From the NCBI RefSeq assembly GCF_034048115.1, contig NZ_CP139145.1, positions 2,294,001 to 2,358,000 on the forward strand: 64,000 nucleotides of DNA. The letters are read 5' to 3'. The notes beneath the pieces are model-generated. The model ran no database searches, was not told the DNA's origin, and saw nothing but the letters and a program-made list of their open reading frames with translations. The DNA comes from Pseudarthrobacter sp. IC2-21. GTDB taxonomy: Bacteria > Actinomycetota > Actinomycetes > Actinomycetales > Micrococcaceae. This document shows, one piece after another, positions 1 to 49,226 of this stretch (position 1 is its first letter; every line of letters begins with the position of its first letter). The translations under genes were made by a program, and so were the position numbers.

Positions 1-2307
1 GAACTCCGCGAAATCGGCGTGGTTGCTCGGACCCTGCCCGCAGATCCCCACCTTGATACCGGCCGCGTGAGCCCGGTCGATGACCTGGCCGATCATCGAT
101 GTCACGGCTTCGTCCCTCTCATCGAACAGTCCCGCCAGCTGCTCTGAGTCCCGGTCCACCCCGAGGACAAGCTGGGTCAGGTCATTGGATCCGATGGAGA
201 AACCGTCAAAGAGGCCGGCGAACTCCGAGGCAAGGATGACGTTGGAGGGAATCTCGCACATCATGTACACCTTCAGGCCTTGCTCGCCGCGGACCAGGCC
301 GTTTGCCGCCATCTCCTTGATCACCAGGCCGGCCTCGTGGGGTGTCCGGCAGAACGGGACCATAATGATGACGTTCGTAAACCCGAGGTCCTCCCGCACC
401 CGCTTCAGCGCGCGGCACTCCAGGGCGAACCCTTCGCGGTAGCGCTCGTTGTAGTAGCGCGAGGCCCCGCGAAAGCCCAGCATAGGGTTCTCCTCGGCAA
501 CTTCGAAGGAGCCGCCGCCAATCAGGTGGCCGTACTCGTTGCTCTTGAAGTCGCTGAGCCTGACAATCACCGGGTTCGGGTGATAGGGCGCGGCAATTTT
601 TCCGATGCCCGTTGCCAGCACATCAACGAAGTACTCCTGCAGGTCCGGATAGCCGTGCGTGATCTCCCTGATGCGCCCGGCCTCGCCGGGATCCCGTACC
701 CGTTCCGGGTGGACCAGGGCCATGGGATGGATCCGGATGAGGTTACTGATGATAAATTCCATCCTCGCCAAGCCCACGCCCGCCGCCGGCAGGCGCCACC
801 ATTGGAAGGCGGCTGAGGGACTGGCGATGTTGACCATCACAGCAGTCCGCGTCTCCGGCAGCGCCCCCAGGTCAACCTGCTCCACGTCGAACGCCAGGGT
901 GCCGGCGTAGACCTGCCCATCCTCTCCCCCGGCGCAGGAAAGCGTGATGGGTTGGCCGTTCTCGAGCACCGAGGTGCCGTTCCCGGTGCCGACGACGGCG
1001 GGGACACCCAGTTCCCTGCTGACGATGGCGGCGTGGCTGGTGGGGCCGCCGTGGTCAGTAACAATGCCGGCGGCCCGCTGCATGATGGGAACCCAGTCAG
1101 GGTCGGTCATGCGGGTGACCAGGATGGAGCCGTCCCGGAAATCATCGATGTCTTTGGCGTCCCGCACCACGCAGGCGAGGCCGTGCGCGATCGATCCGCC
1201 GATCGCCGCGCCTTCCGCCAGCAGCCGCCCCGACTCGCGAAGGTGGTAGACGCTGAACACTGAGCCGCTGCGCCTCGCCTGGACAGTTTCGGGCCGGGCC
1301 TGGACCATAAACAGTTCCCCGGTGGCGCCGTCCTTGGCCCACTCCATGTCCATCGGACGGCCGTAGTGGTCCTCCACCGCCACAGCCCAGCGGGCCAGCC
1401 GCACCGTCTCGGCATCGGTCAGGACGAAGGACCGGCGTTCCTGGTCCGAGGTATCCACCGTCCTGGTCCGCGCATGGCCGCCGCGGCTGTAGACCATCTT
1501 GCGTTCCTTGGCTCCCATGGTCTTTTCGATGATCGGCGTCAGTTCCGGATCAGCCAGCAACGGCTTGAACACCTGGTACTTGTCCGGATTGATGCTTCCC
1601 TGAACCACTGTTTCGCCCAGTCCCCACGCAGCACTGATCAGGACACTGCGGGGGAACCCGGACTCTGTGTCGATCGAAAACATCACCCCGGACGCGCCAA
1701 TGTCTGAGCGCACCATCCGCTGCACCCCGACGGACAGTGCCACCTCCAGGTGGTCGAACCCCTTGATTTCCCGGTACGAGATGGCCCGGTCAGTAAACAG
1801 GGAGGCGTAGCAGCGCCTGCAGGCTTCCAGGAGCTCCCGTTCCCCGGAAATGTTCAGGAATGTTTCCTGTTGGCCGGCGAAACTCGCGTCCGGAAGGTCC
1901 TCGGCGGTGGCGCTGCTGCGCACAGCCACCGACGCCCTGGCCTGGCCGGTGCGTTCGCACAGTGCCCTGTAGTGTTCCCGGATGGTGGCGGCGATGTCGG
2001 GCGGGAACTGGCCTTCGAGAATGAGCTCCCGGATGGCCTCCCCCGCCTCCCGCAGGGTTGCGCGGCCCGCACGGTAGTTCTCAATCGAGGTGCGTATTTG
2101 CCCCTCGAGGCCGTTCGCGGCCACAAAGGCACGGTACGCTGCGGCGGTGGTGGCGAAGCCCTCCGGAACCCGGACGCCGGAACTCAGCAGGGAGCGGGTC
2201 AGTTCACCCAGCGACGCGTTTTTGCCGCCTACGGCCGGCACGTCGCCCATCCCCACTTCATCGAACCACATCACATGAACGCCAGTTATCGCCGTCGTAT
2301 CAGCCAT
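1..2307 (-). CDS. ppsA: Phosphoenolpyruvate synthase, 3' end cut by window edge
   Basis: Converts pyruvate, ATP and water to PEP, AMP and phosphate (gluconeogenic). The start at 2307 gives MADTTAITGVHVMWFDEVG, then VGGKNASLGEL, the usual N-terminal nucleotide-binding domain opening. The swivelling phosphohistidine domain is visible as GGPTSHAAIVSREL, with the catalytic His at residue 425 (codon 1033-1035). The PEP-binding domain reaches VGICGQGPSNHADFAEF at the edge; about 30-40 residues are probably missing. AAGGA seven bases before the ATG is a good ribosome binding site, and a DosR-like box lies 36-49 bases upstream. Oddly, there is no stop codon between this gene and the upstream ATPase, which is in the same frame. 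Confidence 0.93.
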   Translation of the reverse strand, partial: MADTTAITGVHVMWFDEVGMGDVPAVGGKNASLGELTRSLLSSGVRVPEGFATTAAAYRAFVAANGLEGQIRTSIENYRAGRATLREAGEAIRELILEGQFPPDIAATIREHYRALCERTGQARASVAVRSSATAEDLPDASFAGQQETFLNISGERELLEACRRCYASLFTDRAISYREIKGFDHLEVALSVGVQRMVRSDIGASGVMFSIDTESGFPRSVLISAAWGLGETVVQGSINPDKYQVFKPLLADPELTPIIEKTMGAKERKMVYSRGGHARTRTVDTSDQERRSFVLTDAETVRLARWAVAVEDHYGRPMDMEWAKDGATGELFMVQARPETVQARRSGSVFSVYHLRESGRLLAEGAAIGGSIAHGLACVVRDAKDIDDFRDGSILVTRMTDPDWVPIMQRAAGIVTDHGGPTSHAAIVSRELGVPAVVGTGNGTSVLENGQPITLSCAGGEDGQVYAGTLAFDVEQVDLGALPETRTAVMVNIASPSAAFQWWRLPAAGVGLARMEFIISNLIRIHPMALVHPERVRDPGEAGRIREITHGYPDLQEYFVDVLATGIGKIAAPYHPNPVIVRLSDFKSNEYGHLIGGGSFEVAEENPMLGFRGASRYYNERYREGFALECRALKRVREDLGFTNVIIMVPFCRTPHEAGLVIKEMAANGLVRGEQGLKVYMMCEIPSNVILASEFAGLFDGFSIGSNDLTQLVLGVDRDSEQLAGLFDERDEAVTSMIGQVIDRAHAAGIKVGICGQGPSNHADFAEF

Positions 2308-4980
2308 GGTTTGATCCTTACGGGACAGATGCTCCAGCATCAGAGTCTTTGGTCCTGCGGACCCCTGGCGGGGAACCGGCGGAGATATCCGGGCGCCGCT
2401 ACCCACAGGCCGCCGCAGCTTCTTGTGCAGCCAGTCCGCTGCCAGCACCGCAGGGACCGCCAGGGCGGCCATGGCGAATCCGACGGGCGGCGGGGGCAGC
2501 TGACCCAGGGCGGCCGCGACGGGACCGACGTAGAGGCACACCGCCAAAGCAGCGAGTTCGGCCAGTACCGCCCAAAGCAGCAGCCGGTTCGTCAGCCAGC
2601 CCTGTTTCCAGGGCGGCCGGGTAGCGCTGCGGCACGCGAACGCATTCGCCAGCTGGCCAAGCACCACAGCGGTGAAGGCCGCCCCGGATGCCGCCATCAG
2701 CAGCCCCGGATCGTGCGGGCCCCCGCGCATCCAGCCGCCGCTGAACAGCACCACGGAGAATCCCGTCATGGACACCAGGGCTTCCACCGGCCCCAGCACG
2801 CAGAACACCCGGAACATCAGCCGGCGGTCCATCAGGTGGCGCCGCTCCGGCGGCCGCTTCAGCACTCCCTTCCCCGGCGGTTCACCGCCGAGGGCAAGTG
2901 CCGGCAGCAAATCGGTACCGATGTCCAGGGCGAGGATCTGAAGAACGCCCAGGGCGAGCGGAAACTGGCCGCCGGAGAGTGCCCAGATGATGAAGGGGGT
3001 CAGCTCGGCAACGTTGTCGGTCAGGTGATAGGTCAGGAACCGGTGGATGTTGGCGTAGGTGGCGCGTCCCTGTTCAATTGCTGCCACGATGGTCCCGAAG
3101 TGGTCATCCAGAAGAACCAGATCGGAGGCTTCGCGGGCCACGTCCGTTCCGCTGAGCCCCATCGCCACCCCGATGTCGGCTTCCTGGAGCGCCGGGCCGT
3201 CGTTAACGCCGTCACCGGTCATGGCCACGACGTGACCCCGGCTCTGCAGTGCTCTGGCCACCCGAAGCTTCTGTTCCGGGGAGACCCTGCTGACCACGAT
3301 GCCGTCCCGGTCCAGCAGGGCACCCAGGATCTGTTCGTCCTCCGGCAGTTCTGCTCCCTCCAGAATCAGTTCGGGTGTTCCCAGCAGTCCAATTTCCCGC
3401 GCGATGGCGGCCGCCGTTGCCGGATGGTCCCCCGTGATCATGCCTATCCGGATGCCGGCTTCCCGCGCGGTCCGGATCACCTCGTCCACTCCCTGCCGGG
3501 GCGGGTCATGGAGGGCGATCAGCCCCAGCAGGTGAAGGTCCCTTTCGGCTTCCTCCGCCGGGCACTCCAGCCAGTCCCCGGCGCGGCCGGGAAGTTCGCG
3601 GCTGGCCACTGCCATCACCCGCAGTCCCCGTGACGCCATCGCCTCCACTTCTTCCGCCGCCGCGTTCGTGGACCCGTTGCAGAGCGGAATGACCGATTCG
3701 GGCGCCCCCTTGACGAAGAGCGTGGTGCCGGCGATGACAGATTCGCGACGGCGCCGGGGGTCGAAGGCGAACCTTCGCGCCGGCCTGGCATTCTCAGGCG
3801 TTGTCCCGGAAAGGCGGCGGGCCAGGACATCAAGGGCGGCTTCCATGGGGTCGCCGTCCGCTCGCCACTCATCGCCGTGTTGAACGGCCCGGCCCTGGGA
3901 GGCTGCACGTGCTGCGAGCGCCGTGCGGGTTGCTGCGCCCACCGCCTGCCCCTCGATCCGGGCAACCGGCAGGTATCCCTCCCCGGCCACCTTCACCCGG
4001 CCCTCAGCGGTGAAGACTTCGACGGCGTTCATCCGGTTCTGCGTCAGGGTTCCTGTCTTGTCAGTACAGATGAACGTGGTGGACCCCAGGGTTTCCACCG
4101 CCTCCAGGTTGCGGACCAGCGCGTTCCGGGCCGCCATCCGCTGCGCACCCATGGCGAGGGACAGCGTGACAGTTGGCAGCAGCCCCTCCGGAACCAGGGC
4201 AACCGCCACTCCGATGGCGAAGAGGAAGGCGGCACTCCACGGGATGCCCACCAGCAACGACACCAGGAAGAAAACCCCGGCGACGGCCAGTGCAACCCCG
4301 GCTATGAGCCGGACGATCCGGCGGAGTTCACGCGCCAGGGGCGTTGGGGGCGAGACGGTGCCGCTGGTCAGCTTGGCGATTCCGGCCAGCCTCGTGTTTG
4401 CGCCGGTGTGGGTCACAACCGCTTCCGCCGCGCCGTTGACAAGGAACGTCCCGCCCCAGGCAGGCTCGCCGCTGCCCTTCTGCACCGCTTCGCTTTCCCC
4501 TGTCAGCAGGGACTCGTCCACGGCGCAGCCGGAACCAAGAACCAGGACGACGTCGGCCGGCACCCTGTCACCCGCTGTCAGAATGACGGCGTCACCCGGG
4601 ACCAGTTCGCTGGCGGCAATCCTGCGGGTCTGGCCGTCCCGGCGGACGGAGACCTCGGCCGGCAGCAGCCCGCGGAGTTTTTCGGCCGCGTGCTGTGCGC
4701 GTTCCTGCTGGATGTGGGCGAAGATTCCGTTGACCAGCACCACCACGATGATGGCAACGCCCAATTCCGGCATTCCTCCGACGAACGCCAGCACCGAGGC
4801 GCACCAGAGCATCAGGGCAAAAAAATGCGTCAGCTCACCGAGGAGTTTGCGCCACTGCGGCACGGGCTTCGCTTCGGGAAGTACGTTGGGTCCCGATTCC
4901 CGCAGCAACGCCGCGGCACGCCCGGAGCTCAACCCGGTCGCCTCCAGCCCGGATTGCGGCGGCCCCTCGCGTGGTGCCAC
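2308..4980 (-). CDS. Cation-transporting P-type ATPase (CtpF / P2-like), no stop before ppsA
   Basis: Membrane ion pump of the P2 (Ca2+-type) family. In order: N-terminal cation-ATPase domain, first transmembrane helices, the actuator motif DESLLTGESEAV, PEGLLPTVTLSLA in helix 4, the phosphorylation motif ICTDKTGTLTQNRM (catalytic Asp307, codon 4060-4062), the hinge TGDGVNDGPAL (the family usually has Ala where this has Gly) and C-terminal helices ending near HKKLRRPV. GTG at 4980 follows GGAG with five bases between, and sits two bases after the stop of the GH65 gene, so the two are coupled. About 891 codons to position 2308 is normal length for CtpF-type pumps, but no stop occurs there and the frame runs on into ppsA. 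The ion is not predictable from this. Confidence 0.9.
2343..2356 (-). promoter_or_regulatory. DosR-like box upstream of ppsA
   Basis: On the minus strand this reads AGGACCAAAGACTC. It matches the DosR/DevR core GGGACTWWAGTCCC at most positions and is nearly identical to sites at 8380, 12690 and 49213. It lies inside the ATPase-ppsA linker, 36-49 bases before the ppsA ATG, which suggests that ppsA has its own promoter. The regulator is inferred. Confidence 0.5.
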
Positions 4981-4982
4981 TG

Positions 4983-7900
4983 CTACTCCGTGTTCCCCGC
5001 GTGGTTAAGCGCTGGTTTGGGGGAAAGGGTGAATTGCCGGGTCTGGCCGGCACGGATGAGGGTGCGTTCGGAGCCGACCTGCAGCCAGATGGCGGGCGCA
5101 TCTCCGGGGGCCGCCGCCAGGGTTAGCAGGCCGTGTTCCAGGTGGACTGCGAGCAGATGGTCCCGGTAGCGGACTTGGAACGACACTGACCTGATCCCCT
5201 GGGGCATCTTCGGTGCGAAGAGGAGTCCTTCGCCGGTGAACCTGAGGCCGGCGAAGCTTCGCTGCACCACGTCGATGGTTCCTGCCATCGCGCCGAGATG
5301 TATCCCTGTGCGGGTGGTGCCGCCCTGGGTGTCATCAAGGTCTGCGCTCAGGGCTTCACGGAAGGTATTCCAGGCCCGCTCCGGATCCTTTGCCGCCAGG
5401 ACGGAGGCGTGCGCCACCCGGCTGAGGGTGGAGCCGTGCGCTGTGCGGGCGAGGTAGTAATCGACGGTTGCTTCAATCTGGGCGGCGGAGATGTCGTAGC
5501 CCAGACCGGCCAAAAACCGCGTCAGTTCCTTTTCGCCCAGGACGTAGAGCAGCATCAGCACATCGGCCTGCTTGGCCAGGCGGTACCGGTTGGTGCTGTC
5601 CCCCTCCGCTTCCAGGATCAGGTCCAGGCGCTCGATGTTTGTGTAGACGGTGCGGTAGCGGTCCCAGTCCAGTTCCTGCAGTTGTTCGTACCCGGCAAAC
5701 TGGCTGATGATGCCGTCGTGGAACGGTACGAACATCCGTTGGCTGAGGTGCTTCCACCGTGCTACTTCCGAGGGGCCAACGGCCAGGCGTCCCTGGAGCT
5801 CCTCGAGGTCGTGGCCCTGCAGCGTTGTCATGATGGCGCAGGCCTGGGCACAGACCCACGCGGCCAGCACGTTTGTGTAGGCGTTGTCGTCCAGGCCGGC
5901 ACCGTCTTTGTCCGGATGGCCTGTGTGATATTCATCCGGCCCCATGATTCCGCGAAGATGGAACCGGTCCTCCTCCCGGTCGTGTTCGGCCATGGAAGTC
6001 ATCAGGCGTGCCACGTCCACTATCAGCTCGGCGCCGTGGCGCAGGAGCCATTCCCTGTCCTGGGTGGCCAGAAAGTACTGCCACGCGTTGAAGGCGACGG
6101 CGAGGCCGGCATGCCGCTGAAGATGTGAGTAGTCCGGTACCCACCGGCCGGAGCGCCGGTTGAAGAGCCAGAGCGGAGTCTCCTCCCTTCCGTCACTGCC
6201 GCTCTGCCAGGGGAAGAGCGCGCCGCGCAGCCCTGCCGTCGCAGCCGCCTCTCTGGCGGCTGGAAGCCTGCGCCAGCGGTAGTTGATCACGGAACGCGCC
6301 ACGAAAGGCATCCTGGAGGTGAGGAGGGGGAGGACGAACAGTTCGTCCCAGAACACGTGGCCACGGTAGCCCTCCCCGTGGAGCCCGCGCGCGGGCACGC
6401 CTGCGTCCTGCTCGGCAGTGTGCGGGCTGAGCGTCTGCAGCAAATGGAAAACATGAAGGTTCACGATGAGCTGCACCTCGGGGCTGCCGTCAATCTCGAT
6501 GGCGAACAGGGCCAGGAGCCTGCCCCAGACGGCCTCGTGTTCGGAGAGCAACTGCTCGAAGTCGGGGCTGGCTGTCCTTAGCACGGACCGGGCAGCCACG
6601 GCCGGCGAGGAGATCGCGTGGTCACGGGACGTGACCACTGCCGCCGTCCGCGTGATCACCACGGGTGCCGCGTCAGCCAGCTCAAGGCGCCACGCCCGGA
6701 AGGAGAGCCCTTCCTCCTCCCCCGGCGCGCCGTCGTCGTTCTTCCCGGAGATTTCGGTGCGCACAGCGGTGGCGATGCGGATGTGGCTTTGGCTCGTTTC
6801 CACTTCCACAACCTGAACCGGCTCAGCCGGGTCTGGAGCACCCAGCCGGACCAGGTGGTGGTGGGACAGGAGCGCGTCTTCCGGGACGTTCTCATTGGTG
6901 ACTCCACAGTCCACTCCGCTGCGGATCTCCACCGCGCCGCTCCACCCCACCGCCGTCACTGTGGTGTTCAGGGCCATGAGATGCGGCTGAGCCATGGAGA
7001 CGAACCTGCGCTGGTTCACCGCCAGCCGCCGCCCGTCCTGTGTTTCCAGCAGAACGTCCCGTTCCAGGGTGGCCCGGCGCATGTCCAGGACCCGCCGTTC
7101 CCTCAGGACCTTCAGGCCGCCCCTGGACCACCAGTCCGAACCCTCCAGCCGGACGTCCACCACCAGCCAGTTGGGGGCATTGACCATGTGCTCGTCCTCC
7201 ACGTCCTGGCCCTGGACGTTGCTTACCAGTCTGTTGTAGACCCCCGCCAGGTAGGTGCCGGGGTAGTGGATTTCGTTCATCCTGCTCTCGGGAGCGGCGC
7301 CGCGGACGGCCAGGTAGCCGTTCCCCAGGGTGGTCAGCGCTTCCCGGTGACCCTCATGGGCGGGGTCGTAGCCTTCGTAAATGAGGCGCCACGGATCGGT
7401 GAGGACCCGTCCGAGGTCCAGTTGCCCCACGTCCGTCAGCACAACGTCGGCTCCCGCCGCTTCAAGGTCGGCCCGCCTGTCGGCCCGGTCGATGCCGACC
7501 ACCAGGCCGAAGCCGCCGCGCCGGGCGGCCTCCACCCCGGCGACGGCGTCCTCAATCACCACGGCGCGGGCCGGCGGGACGCCCAAACGGTGCACGATCT
7601 CAAGGAGCACTGCGGGATCGGGCTTGCCGGGAAGCCCCAGCTCGGCGGCGATGACCCCGCCCATCACGAGGTCGAAAGTGCCGGACAGGCCAGCAGCCGC
7701 CAGCACGGCGGACGCGTTCCGGCTCGATGTTGCCACGGCCACAGGTATCTGGGCGGCGCGCAGCCTTTCGATCAGGGCCAGTGTTCCCGGGAACGTGCGG
7801 ACACCATCGCGTCCCAGCAGTTCTTTGAAGATCCGGTCCTTTTGCCTGGCGAGGCCATAAACCGTCAGCTCTCCCGGCGCATCCCCCGGTTTGCCGTCCG

Positions 7901-8162
7901 GCAGGATGATTCCGCGGGAGGCCAGGAAGGACCGGACGCCGTCTTCACGCGGTTTGCCGTCAACGTAGTCCAGGTAGTCGGCCGCGGTGAATGACCTTTT
8001 TCCCGGCTTCCCCGTCAGCCGCGGATCGGCCAGCAGCTGATCGAAGAGTTGTTTCCAGGCCGCCTCATGCACGGTTGCCGTGTCCGTTACCACCCCGTCC
8101 AGATCGAAAATCACTGCATCAAATGGTGACAACGCCGCTGACGCCGTGGGTGATTCAGCCAT
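4983..8162 (-). CDS. HAD phosphatase / phosphoglucomutase-like domain fused to GH65 sugar phosphorylase
   Basis: Bifunctional enzyme of about 1059 residues. Residues 1-240 are a beta-phosphoglucomutase-type HAD domain: nucleophile motif DLDGVVTDT (Asp20, Asp22), VATSSRNASA, GKPDPAVLLE and VIEDAVAGVEAA. The rest is a GH65 domain with FWDELFVLPLLTSR and the general-acid motif GPDEYH (Glu744, codon 5931-5933) followed by DDNAYTN. GH65 members act on alpha-disaccharides such as trehalose, maltose or kojibiose, and the HAD domain would convert the released beta-glucose-1-phosphate. M. tuberculosis Rv2006 (OtsB1) has a related architecture. I chose ATG 8162, just before the HAD domain; GTG 8234 is possible but has no ribosome site. 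Substrate is unknown. Confidence 0.9.
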   Translation of the reverse strand: MAESPTASAALSPFDAVIFDLDGVVTDTATVHEAAWKQLFDQLLADPRLTGKPGKRSFTAADYLDYVDGKPREDGVRSFLASRGIILPDGKPGDAPGELTVYGLARQKDRIFKELLGRDGVRTFPGTLALIERLRAAQIPVAVATSSRNASAVLAAAGLSGTFDLVMGGVIAAELGLPGKPDPAVLLEIVHRLGVPPARAVVIEDAVAGVEAARRGGFGLVVGIDRADRRADLEAAGADVVLTDVGQLDLGRVLTDPWRLIYEGYDPAHEGHREALTTLGNGYLAVRGAAPESRMNEIHYPGTYLAGVYNRLVSNVQGQDVEDEHMVNAPNWLVVDVRLEGSDWWSRGGLKVLRERRVLDMRRATLERDVLLETQDGRRLAVNQRRFVSMAQPHLMALNTTVTAVGWSGAVEIRSGVDCGVTNENVPEDALLSHHHLVRLGAPDPAEPVQVVEVETSQSHIRIATAVRTEISGKNDDGAPGEEEGLSFRAWRLELADAAPVVITRTAAVVTSRDHAISSPAVAARSVLRTASPDFEQLLSEHEAVWGRLLALFAIEIDGSPEVQLIVNLHVFHLLQTLSPHTAEQDAGVPARGLHGEGYRGHVFWDELFVLPLLTSRMPFVARSVINYRWRRLPAAREAAATAGLRGALFPWQSGSDGREETPLWLFNRRSGRWVPDYSHLQRHAGLAVAFNAWQYFLATQDREWLLRHGAELIVDVARLMTSMAEHDREEDRFHLRGIMGPDEYHTGHPDKDGAGLDDNAYTNVLAAWVCAQACAIMTTLQGHDLEELQGRLAVGPSEVARWKHLSQRMFVPFHDGIISQFAGYEQLQELDWDRYRTVYTNIERLDLILEAEGDSTNRYRLAKQADVLMLLYVLGEKELTRFLAGLGYDISAAQIEATVDYYLARTAHGSTLSRVAHASVLAAKDPERAWNTFREALSADLDDTQGGTTRTGIHLGAMAGTIDVVQRSFAGLRFTGEGLLFAPKMPQGIRSVSFQVRYRDHLLAVHLEHGLLTLAAAPGDAPAIWLQVGSERTLIRAGQTRQFTLSPKPALNHAGNTE

Positions 8163-8379
8163 GGCGCGCCACTCAGAGCCCGCTTCGGGCAGCGGGCGGT
8201 CCCGGCTTGTCCGGCCGCCGGTGCGGGCCGCCACGGTAAAATCGACGCTTAGTGATCACAGCCCCTTGACCTTCCCGAAGACGCGATGGAAGCGGCCGTG
8301 CTTGCCTCCGCTGGCAGGAAAAGGGGCGGCTGGCCGCGGTACCCGTGCCCACTCAAACACGCGGCCCCCGGTCCCGGCA

Positions 8380-8393
8380 GAGGCTTTGGTCCT
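8380..8393 (-). promoter_or_regulatory. DosR-like box upstream of the HAD-GH65 gene
   Basis: Minus-strand AGGACCAAAGCCTC, one base different from the site before ppsA. It is about 220 bases upstream of the chosen ATG (8162) and 145 upstream of the alternative GTG. The intervening sequence holds no other gene. Regulatory role is inferred from the shared motif. Confidence 0.4.
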
Positions 8394-49143: not shown

Positions 49144-49212
49144 CGCTAACGCCTCCTGAATGTCGATGCCCGCCCTCTCTTTGAATATCAGGTGCGGCCC
49201 TGTGAAGTGTCA

Positions 49213-49226
49213 GAGTCTTTGGTCCC
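49213..49226 (-). promoter_or_regulatory. DosR-like box, SHOCT side
   Basis: Minus-strand GGGACCAAAGACTC, one base from the ppsA box. It is 70 bases upstream of the SHOCT ATG and oriented toward it. Confidence 0.5.

Follow-up and report, generated by a model that had tools for sequence, protein, structure and literature searches.

The window analysed here is a 64,000-nucleotide stretch (G000:C1:2294001-2358000) of the single 4.27-Mb contig of Pseudarthrobacter sp. IC2-21, and its first 4980 nucleotides carry, on the minus strand, one open reading frame (ORF) that joins a P-type ATPase, a linker and a PEP synthase (1..4980). As the first-pass annotation had read it, this frame runs from GTG 4980 through the ATPase and the linker into ppsA without a stop: none occurs between positions 4980 and 1 in the six-frame ORF list or in the translation, and the flanking genome places the stop of the fused ORF 96 bases beyond the window edge. 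From GTG 4980, the ORF encodes 1691 aa with a calculated mass of 179.9 kDa (1699 aa for the stop-to-stop frame), and 1660 of its 1691 codons lie inside the window.

The P-type ATPase module (residues 1-858; 2407..4980, minus strand) is recognised by Pfam and NCBIfam models and by its nearest solved structures. Pfam assigns Cation_ATPase_N, E1-E2_ATPase, Hydrolase and Cation_ATPase_C to residues 14-854, the score exceeds the TIGR01494 cut-off (321.5 bits vs. 62.3), and the translation carries TGES, DKTGT and GDGVND, which we take to be the P-type ATPase motifs (TGE, DKTGT and GDGxND). The closest solved structure is Na,K-ATPase alpha, with 2zxe as the best match. Because the pump scores 460 bits against the Na,K/H,K-ATPase alpha (P2C) model TIGR01106, under the cut-off of 946, it is considered a relative of that family and not a member. 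A simple hydropathy scan leaves some of its helices unseparated; the last helix ends in basic residues (HKKLRR), suggesting that the C-terminus is cytosolic, in which case a tethered PpsA is topologically possible.

The PEP synthase (pyruvate, water dikinase) module starts at ATG 2307 and extends beyond the window (1..2307, minus strand). It contains PPDK_N, PEP-utilizers and PEP-utilizers_C, in that order, within residues 915-1653 of the fused protein, and scores above two NCBIfam cut-offs (TIGR01418, 1044.8 bits vs. 739.75; NF005057, 1072 bits vs. 598), with 2ols as the closest solved structure. Translated alone, PpsA would have 800 aa and a calculated mass of 86.4 kDa. The two modules are separated by a linker of 33 codons (residues 859-891; 2308..2406, minus strand), in agreement with the 30-odd codons first proposed, and this segment corresponds to the intergenic spacer of relatives in which the genes are split. 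The signals initially ascribed to ppsA are also found there: an AAGGA ribosome-binding site for the internal start (2315..2319, minus strand) lies 7 nt ahead of ATG 2307, and a DosR-like box, GGACCAAAGACTCTG (2341..2355, minus strand), encodes GPKTL in the fused frame. An out-of-frame TAG triplet lies at 2399..2401 on the same strand.

Upstream, a HAD and glycoside hydrolase family 65 protein (4983..8234, minus strand) ends 2 nt ahead of the ATPase GTG. Downstream, a phosphofructokinase-like ORF, named by eye (L082, 383-1408), shares 4 nt with the end of the fused ORF and is perhaps translationally coupled to it. On the plus strand, an open frame of 627 aa runs antisense to the junction (1750-3633), possibly a mirror frame of high-GC DNA. 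Elsewhere, the genome has six PPDK_N matches and six E1-E2_ATPase matches, and among the former is a second full-length PEP synthase (L173, G000:C1:180805) whose identity to the fused copy is 53% over 789 aa and which could buffer the effects of the fusion.

When the fused protein was searched against 206 genomes of the genus, four matches were unbroken through the junction, namely those in G000 itself, G032, G145 and G088. G032 (99% identity) is a second assembly of the same species, in about 90 contigs, and differs from G000 by 49 nucleotides over the ORF, two of which fall within the 42-codon junction segment. Identity to the query is 87% for G088 and 83% for G145; in G088, the unbroken match covers query residues 251-1660 in a stretch that contains 123 N, and the ATPase match is interrupted between residues 226 and 252. 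A junction-centred protein search, in which 8000 candidates were scored, 1939 passed and the best 120 were listed, gave at least 11 database protein clusters (P0002-P0012; 1271-1693 aa) that span the whole searched junction region at 77-90% identity, while the remaining 109 of these best 120 have no E1-E2 ATPase domain. Ten of the 11 clusters are attributed to jgi, lgn, ena or ncbi, and one of these ten, P0012, is the protein of G145 itself. The eleventh, P0003, has no source given, and this cluster may include the window's own protein.

The arrangement of the two genes was then compared across the genus in 80 of the 206 genomes, fetched either because both genes matched close together or because ppsA alone stood high among the matches listed. 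The junction lay within the fetched stretch in 76 of them, G198, G099, G139 and G041 being left out since their stretches lacked the ATPase C-terminus; the counts cover these 76 genomes, and the other 126 of the 206 fall outside the junction survey. In many genomes of the genus, ATPase and ppsA lie side by side in the same direction, and 72 of the 76 junctions are separate. The frame offset between ATPase and ppsA is 0 in 21 genomes (four fused and 17 with one stop), +1 in 33 and +2 in 22. The first-pass annotation had also envisaged that relatives might all show a stop after the ATPase: this holds for the 72, including G029, the split genome nearest to G000 (89.6%), but not for the four fused genomes. 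The eight closest genomes are equally divided, G000, G032, G088 and G145 being fused and G029, G054, G092 and G109 split. The fusion is a lineage-specific and changing state.

Beyond the genus, no ATPase-PEP synthase fusion was found outside the Arthrobacter-type group among the matches listed, either in protein clusters or in 395 genomes of the family. In this family sample (32 genera, including 77 genomes of the same genus, G088 and G145 not being drawn), matches were ordered by score, such that a near-full-length match is expected near the top, and among the matches listed only G000 and G032 gave near-full-length unbroken ones. For the best 80 of at least 589 ATPase loci, PpsA was found within the fetched flank in two (L004 and L068), on the opposite strand. 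A separate protein search with the ATPase only, whose length limits exclude full-length fused proteins and which covers the proteins themselves, has among its listed matches split-length ATPases that are 86-91% identical (P0122-P0126), and the sources named among the matches listed are Pseudarthrobacter, Arthrobacter and Paenarthrobacter.

Phylogenies of the modules indicate that the state has changed several times. On a tree of 22 rows, built from both modules with the linker left out (15 of the 76 genomes and seven of P0002-P0012, without P0006, P0007, P0010 and P0012), the fused state has to change four times (3-4 in bootstrap replicates), and on a 41-row ATPase tree six times (5-6); in each, two changes are forced by strongly supported branches. 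The 41 rows comprise 10 genomes, nine of P0002-P0012 (without P0007 and P0012) and 22 ATPases of split length, taken as the first 22 of 120 listed irrespective of adjacency to ppsA; an earlier FastTree had taken in all 76 genomes and P0002-P0011. Such counts do not separate gains from losses. Fused and split rows interleave, split G054 being placed inside the G088 fused group. A single clade of all fused rows is rejected (p-AU 3e-7), as is a clade of the G000 group, P0004 and G145 without G029 (5e-55). The test does not reject one clade for the G000 group plus P0004 (p 0.285), and it is borderline for a G088 clade (p 0.049).

The position of the stop codons bears on the direction of these changes. 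In G029, G054 and G092, the ATPase ends with a TAG in aligned columns where fused G088 has an out-of-frame TAG, and just upstream G088 and G054 differ by one base in an A run, among other differences. This alignment leans towards a loss of the stop. In G000 and G032, the out-of-frame TAG lies outside these columns. The TAG reported near position 2398 exists, at 2399-2401, but does not occupy the alignment column of the split relatives' stop, and its reading as a relic of an old stop is unsupported.

The linker itself resembles a spacer. Synonymous codon use was measured on the 39-42 codons between conserved ends, i.e., the linker and about nine ppsA codons, and is poorer in this segment than in all of 2000 windows sampled from the same ORF, both in G000 and in G032; windows with equally low codon use amount to 0.15% in G145 and 6% in G088. 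In this respect, the linker is spacer-like. Within the G000 group, the linkers are 68-73% identical, compared to 92-93% for the flanks. In length, the linker is constant within each fused group, with 37 aa in G000, G032, P0002 and P0003 and 34 aa in G088 and P0005-P0011. Of 105 same-frame split pairs that are 88-96% identical (272 pairs in all), 28 have spacers of equal length; among 16 reciprocal-nearest split pairs, nine are same-frame, and since five of these nine have equal spacer length, the contrast in length is weakened.

In general, the ATPase has a loosely defined end. Beyond the conserved part, its tail measures 0-37 codons in the 65 gapped genomes, and the ATPase frame overruns the ppsA start in frame in 4 of the 76 genomes and out of frame in seven, where overlapping genes result (G123, G061, G100, G067, G043, G071 and G113; loci L121, L142, L143, L144, L145, L146 and L147). 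Seven versus four fits the ratio of about 2:1 for out-of-frame to in-frame overruns that is expected if overruns are neutral, with few independent events behind the counts. Among 65 split genomes, 60 have a spacer that is open in the ppsA frame, compared with 35 expected by shuffling (relatedness uncorrected); the two other frames are open in 32 and 16 of 65. This openness makes an in-frame overrun easier.

The box inside the linker is shared with the split relatives. A sequence of the form GGACCAAAG(A/C)CTCTG, or one that departs from it slightly, is found between both genes in 75 of the 76 genomes, G183 being the only one in which the search pattern missed it. In the four fused genomes, the box reads GPK(T/P)L with identical third-position letters, and all four retain the ribosome site and ATG of ppsA, from which PpsA can still be translated on its own. 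Across the 4.27-Mb genome, the pattern GGACCWAAGNCYCTG has four copies, all of them inside one 51-kb interval (G000:C1:2292284 and window positions 2341-2355, 8378-8392 and 49211-49225), and its reversed control has 0. The copies precede an Hsp20-like ORF (named by eye), ppsA and the HAD-GH65 gene, the fourth being that at 49211; the copy at 8378..8392 (minus strand) lies about 145 nt ahead of the HAD-GH65 start. Judged from their positions, the four clustered boxes look like a small local regulon.

Such a grouping recalls the DosR regulon of Mycobacterium tuberculosis, where Rv1997 is the P-type ATPase CtpF, Rv2031c is HspX and Rv2029c is PfkB. In both cases, P-type ATPase, Hsp20-like and phosphofructokinase-like genes lie by GGAC-type boxes at one locus. 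However, the box here, GGACCAAAG(A/C)CTCTG, matches TTSGGGACTWWAGTCCCSAA just partly. The latter is the palindromic type of the M. tuberculosis DosR motif, which is reported with Rv1997 and Rv2031c (PMC2275270).

Both halves of the fused protein belong to known families. The pump is like the P2-type cation ATPases in having the P-type domains and motifs over its full length, but its C-terminus continues into another enzyme. Similarly, the second half has the domain order of PEP synthases and exceeds both curated cut-offs, yet an ATPase and a linker precede it in the same frame, and the two are separate in 72 of 76 genomes of the genus examined at the junction. Neighbours in an operon can fuse when the upstream stop is lost. 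The present case would follow this route, with co-directional neighbours and an in-frame spacer that turns into a linker, and departs from it in the pairing of ATPase and PEP synthase domains and in a state that switches repeatedly among close species. No published description of an ATPase-PEP synthase fusion was found in the titles and abstract openings of the papers listed. Fusion by stop loss is ordinary; what is new is which domains are paired, and that the state switches from one relative to another.

Altogether, these findings lead to a model in which recurrent, nearly neutral loss of the ATPase stop yields a fused protein besides free PpsA, and we consider this account probable. The stop would be lost in a few lineages through small frame changes just past the last membrane helix, and the spacer, which happens to be open in the ppsA frame, would become the linker. 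Ribosomes translating the ATPase would then run on to produce one protein of roughly 180 kDa, in which PEP synthase would sit on the cytosolic end of the pump, while the box and ribosome site inside the linker would allow a free 86-kDa PpsA to be produced as well. The fused state would be tolerated and not needed. The model presumes that the fused protein is made and stable, that it adopts this topology, that free PpsA is made too, that gains outnumber losses, and that the state is nearly neutral. Because the join differs among close relatives, a tolerated accident seems a better description than an essential machine, and the codon use of the linker, together with the turnover of the state, argues against strong selection. 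Three observations stand against this account: the constant length of the linker within each fused group; a divergence of up to about 11% between fused proteins inside one group (G088 to P0005/P0011), although split G054 is nested there; and a spacer that is open in the ppsA frame more often than shuffling predicts.

The same observations could be read as signs of a selected bifunctional enzyme, in which the pump tethers PEP synthase to the inner membrane face and in which the ATP consumption of the pump might be coupled to PEP/AMP production, or co-localised with it, when oxygen or energy is low. Both domain sets are present, linker length is fixed within the fused groups, the fusion recurs within one subclade, and the HKKLRR end suggests that the C-terminus lies in the cytosol, where PpsA could function. 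However, four of the eight closest genomes do without the fusion, split ATPases exist at 86-91% identity, the linker has the codon use of a spacer, and the box and ribosome site for a separate ppsA are retained. Moreover, out-of-frame overruns are no rarer than fusions, and the genome has a second PEP synthase. We therefore regard selection for a bifunctional enzyme as unlikely, albeit as the foremost of the alternatives. Its fullest version, i.e., a P2-type cation pump with a cytosolic PEP synthase tail, gained several times in parallel and kept for membrane-tethered PEP synthesis at low oxygen, with free PpsA expressed from a promoter in the linker, would be slightly more doubtful still.

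It is also conceivable that the frame is open and that little fused protein accumulates, the internal start being dominant or the read-through product being cleaved in the linker or degraded. The internal ribosome site, ATG and box kept in all four fused genomes are compatible with such an outcome, but no stop or frameshift stands in the path of the ribosome and both domain sets are present, which makes it rather improbable. The idea that a sequencing or assembly error, or a strain-private mutation, conceals a stop, which the first-pass annotation had held to be the main alternative to the fusion, could draw on the out-of-frame TAG in the linker and on a single base in an A run, one of the differences between fused G088 and split G054, but is rejected as extremely improbable and is refuted for the species, because the frame is also open at the junction in the second assembly (G032), in G145 and G088, and in 11 clusters of fused proteins at 77-90% identity, such that an identical error would have to recur in every one of these records.

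The locus offers a live series of fusions, in which the same two neighbours are joined or split depending on the close relative considered. It is a convenient case in which to ask whether tolerated stop losses are the starting point of new multidomain proteins, and how a soluble metabolic enzyme behaves once it is attached to a membrane pump. It also carries a warning for annotation, since the source name of the 1675-aa protein P0002, 'pyruvate,water dikinase', conceals the half that is a pump.
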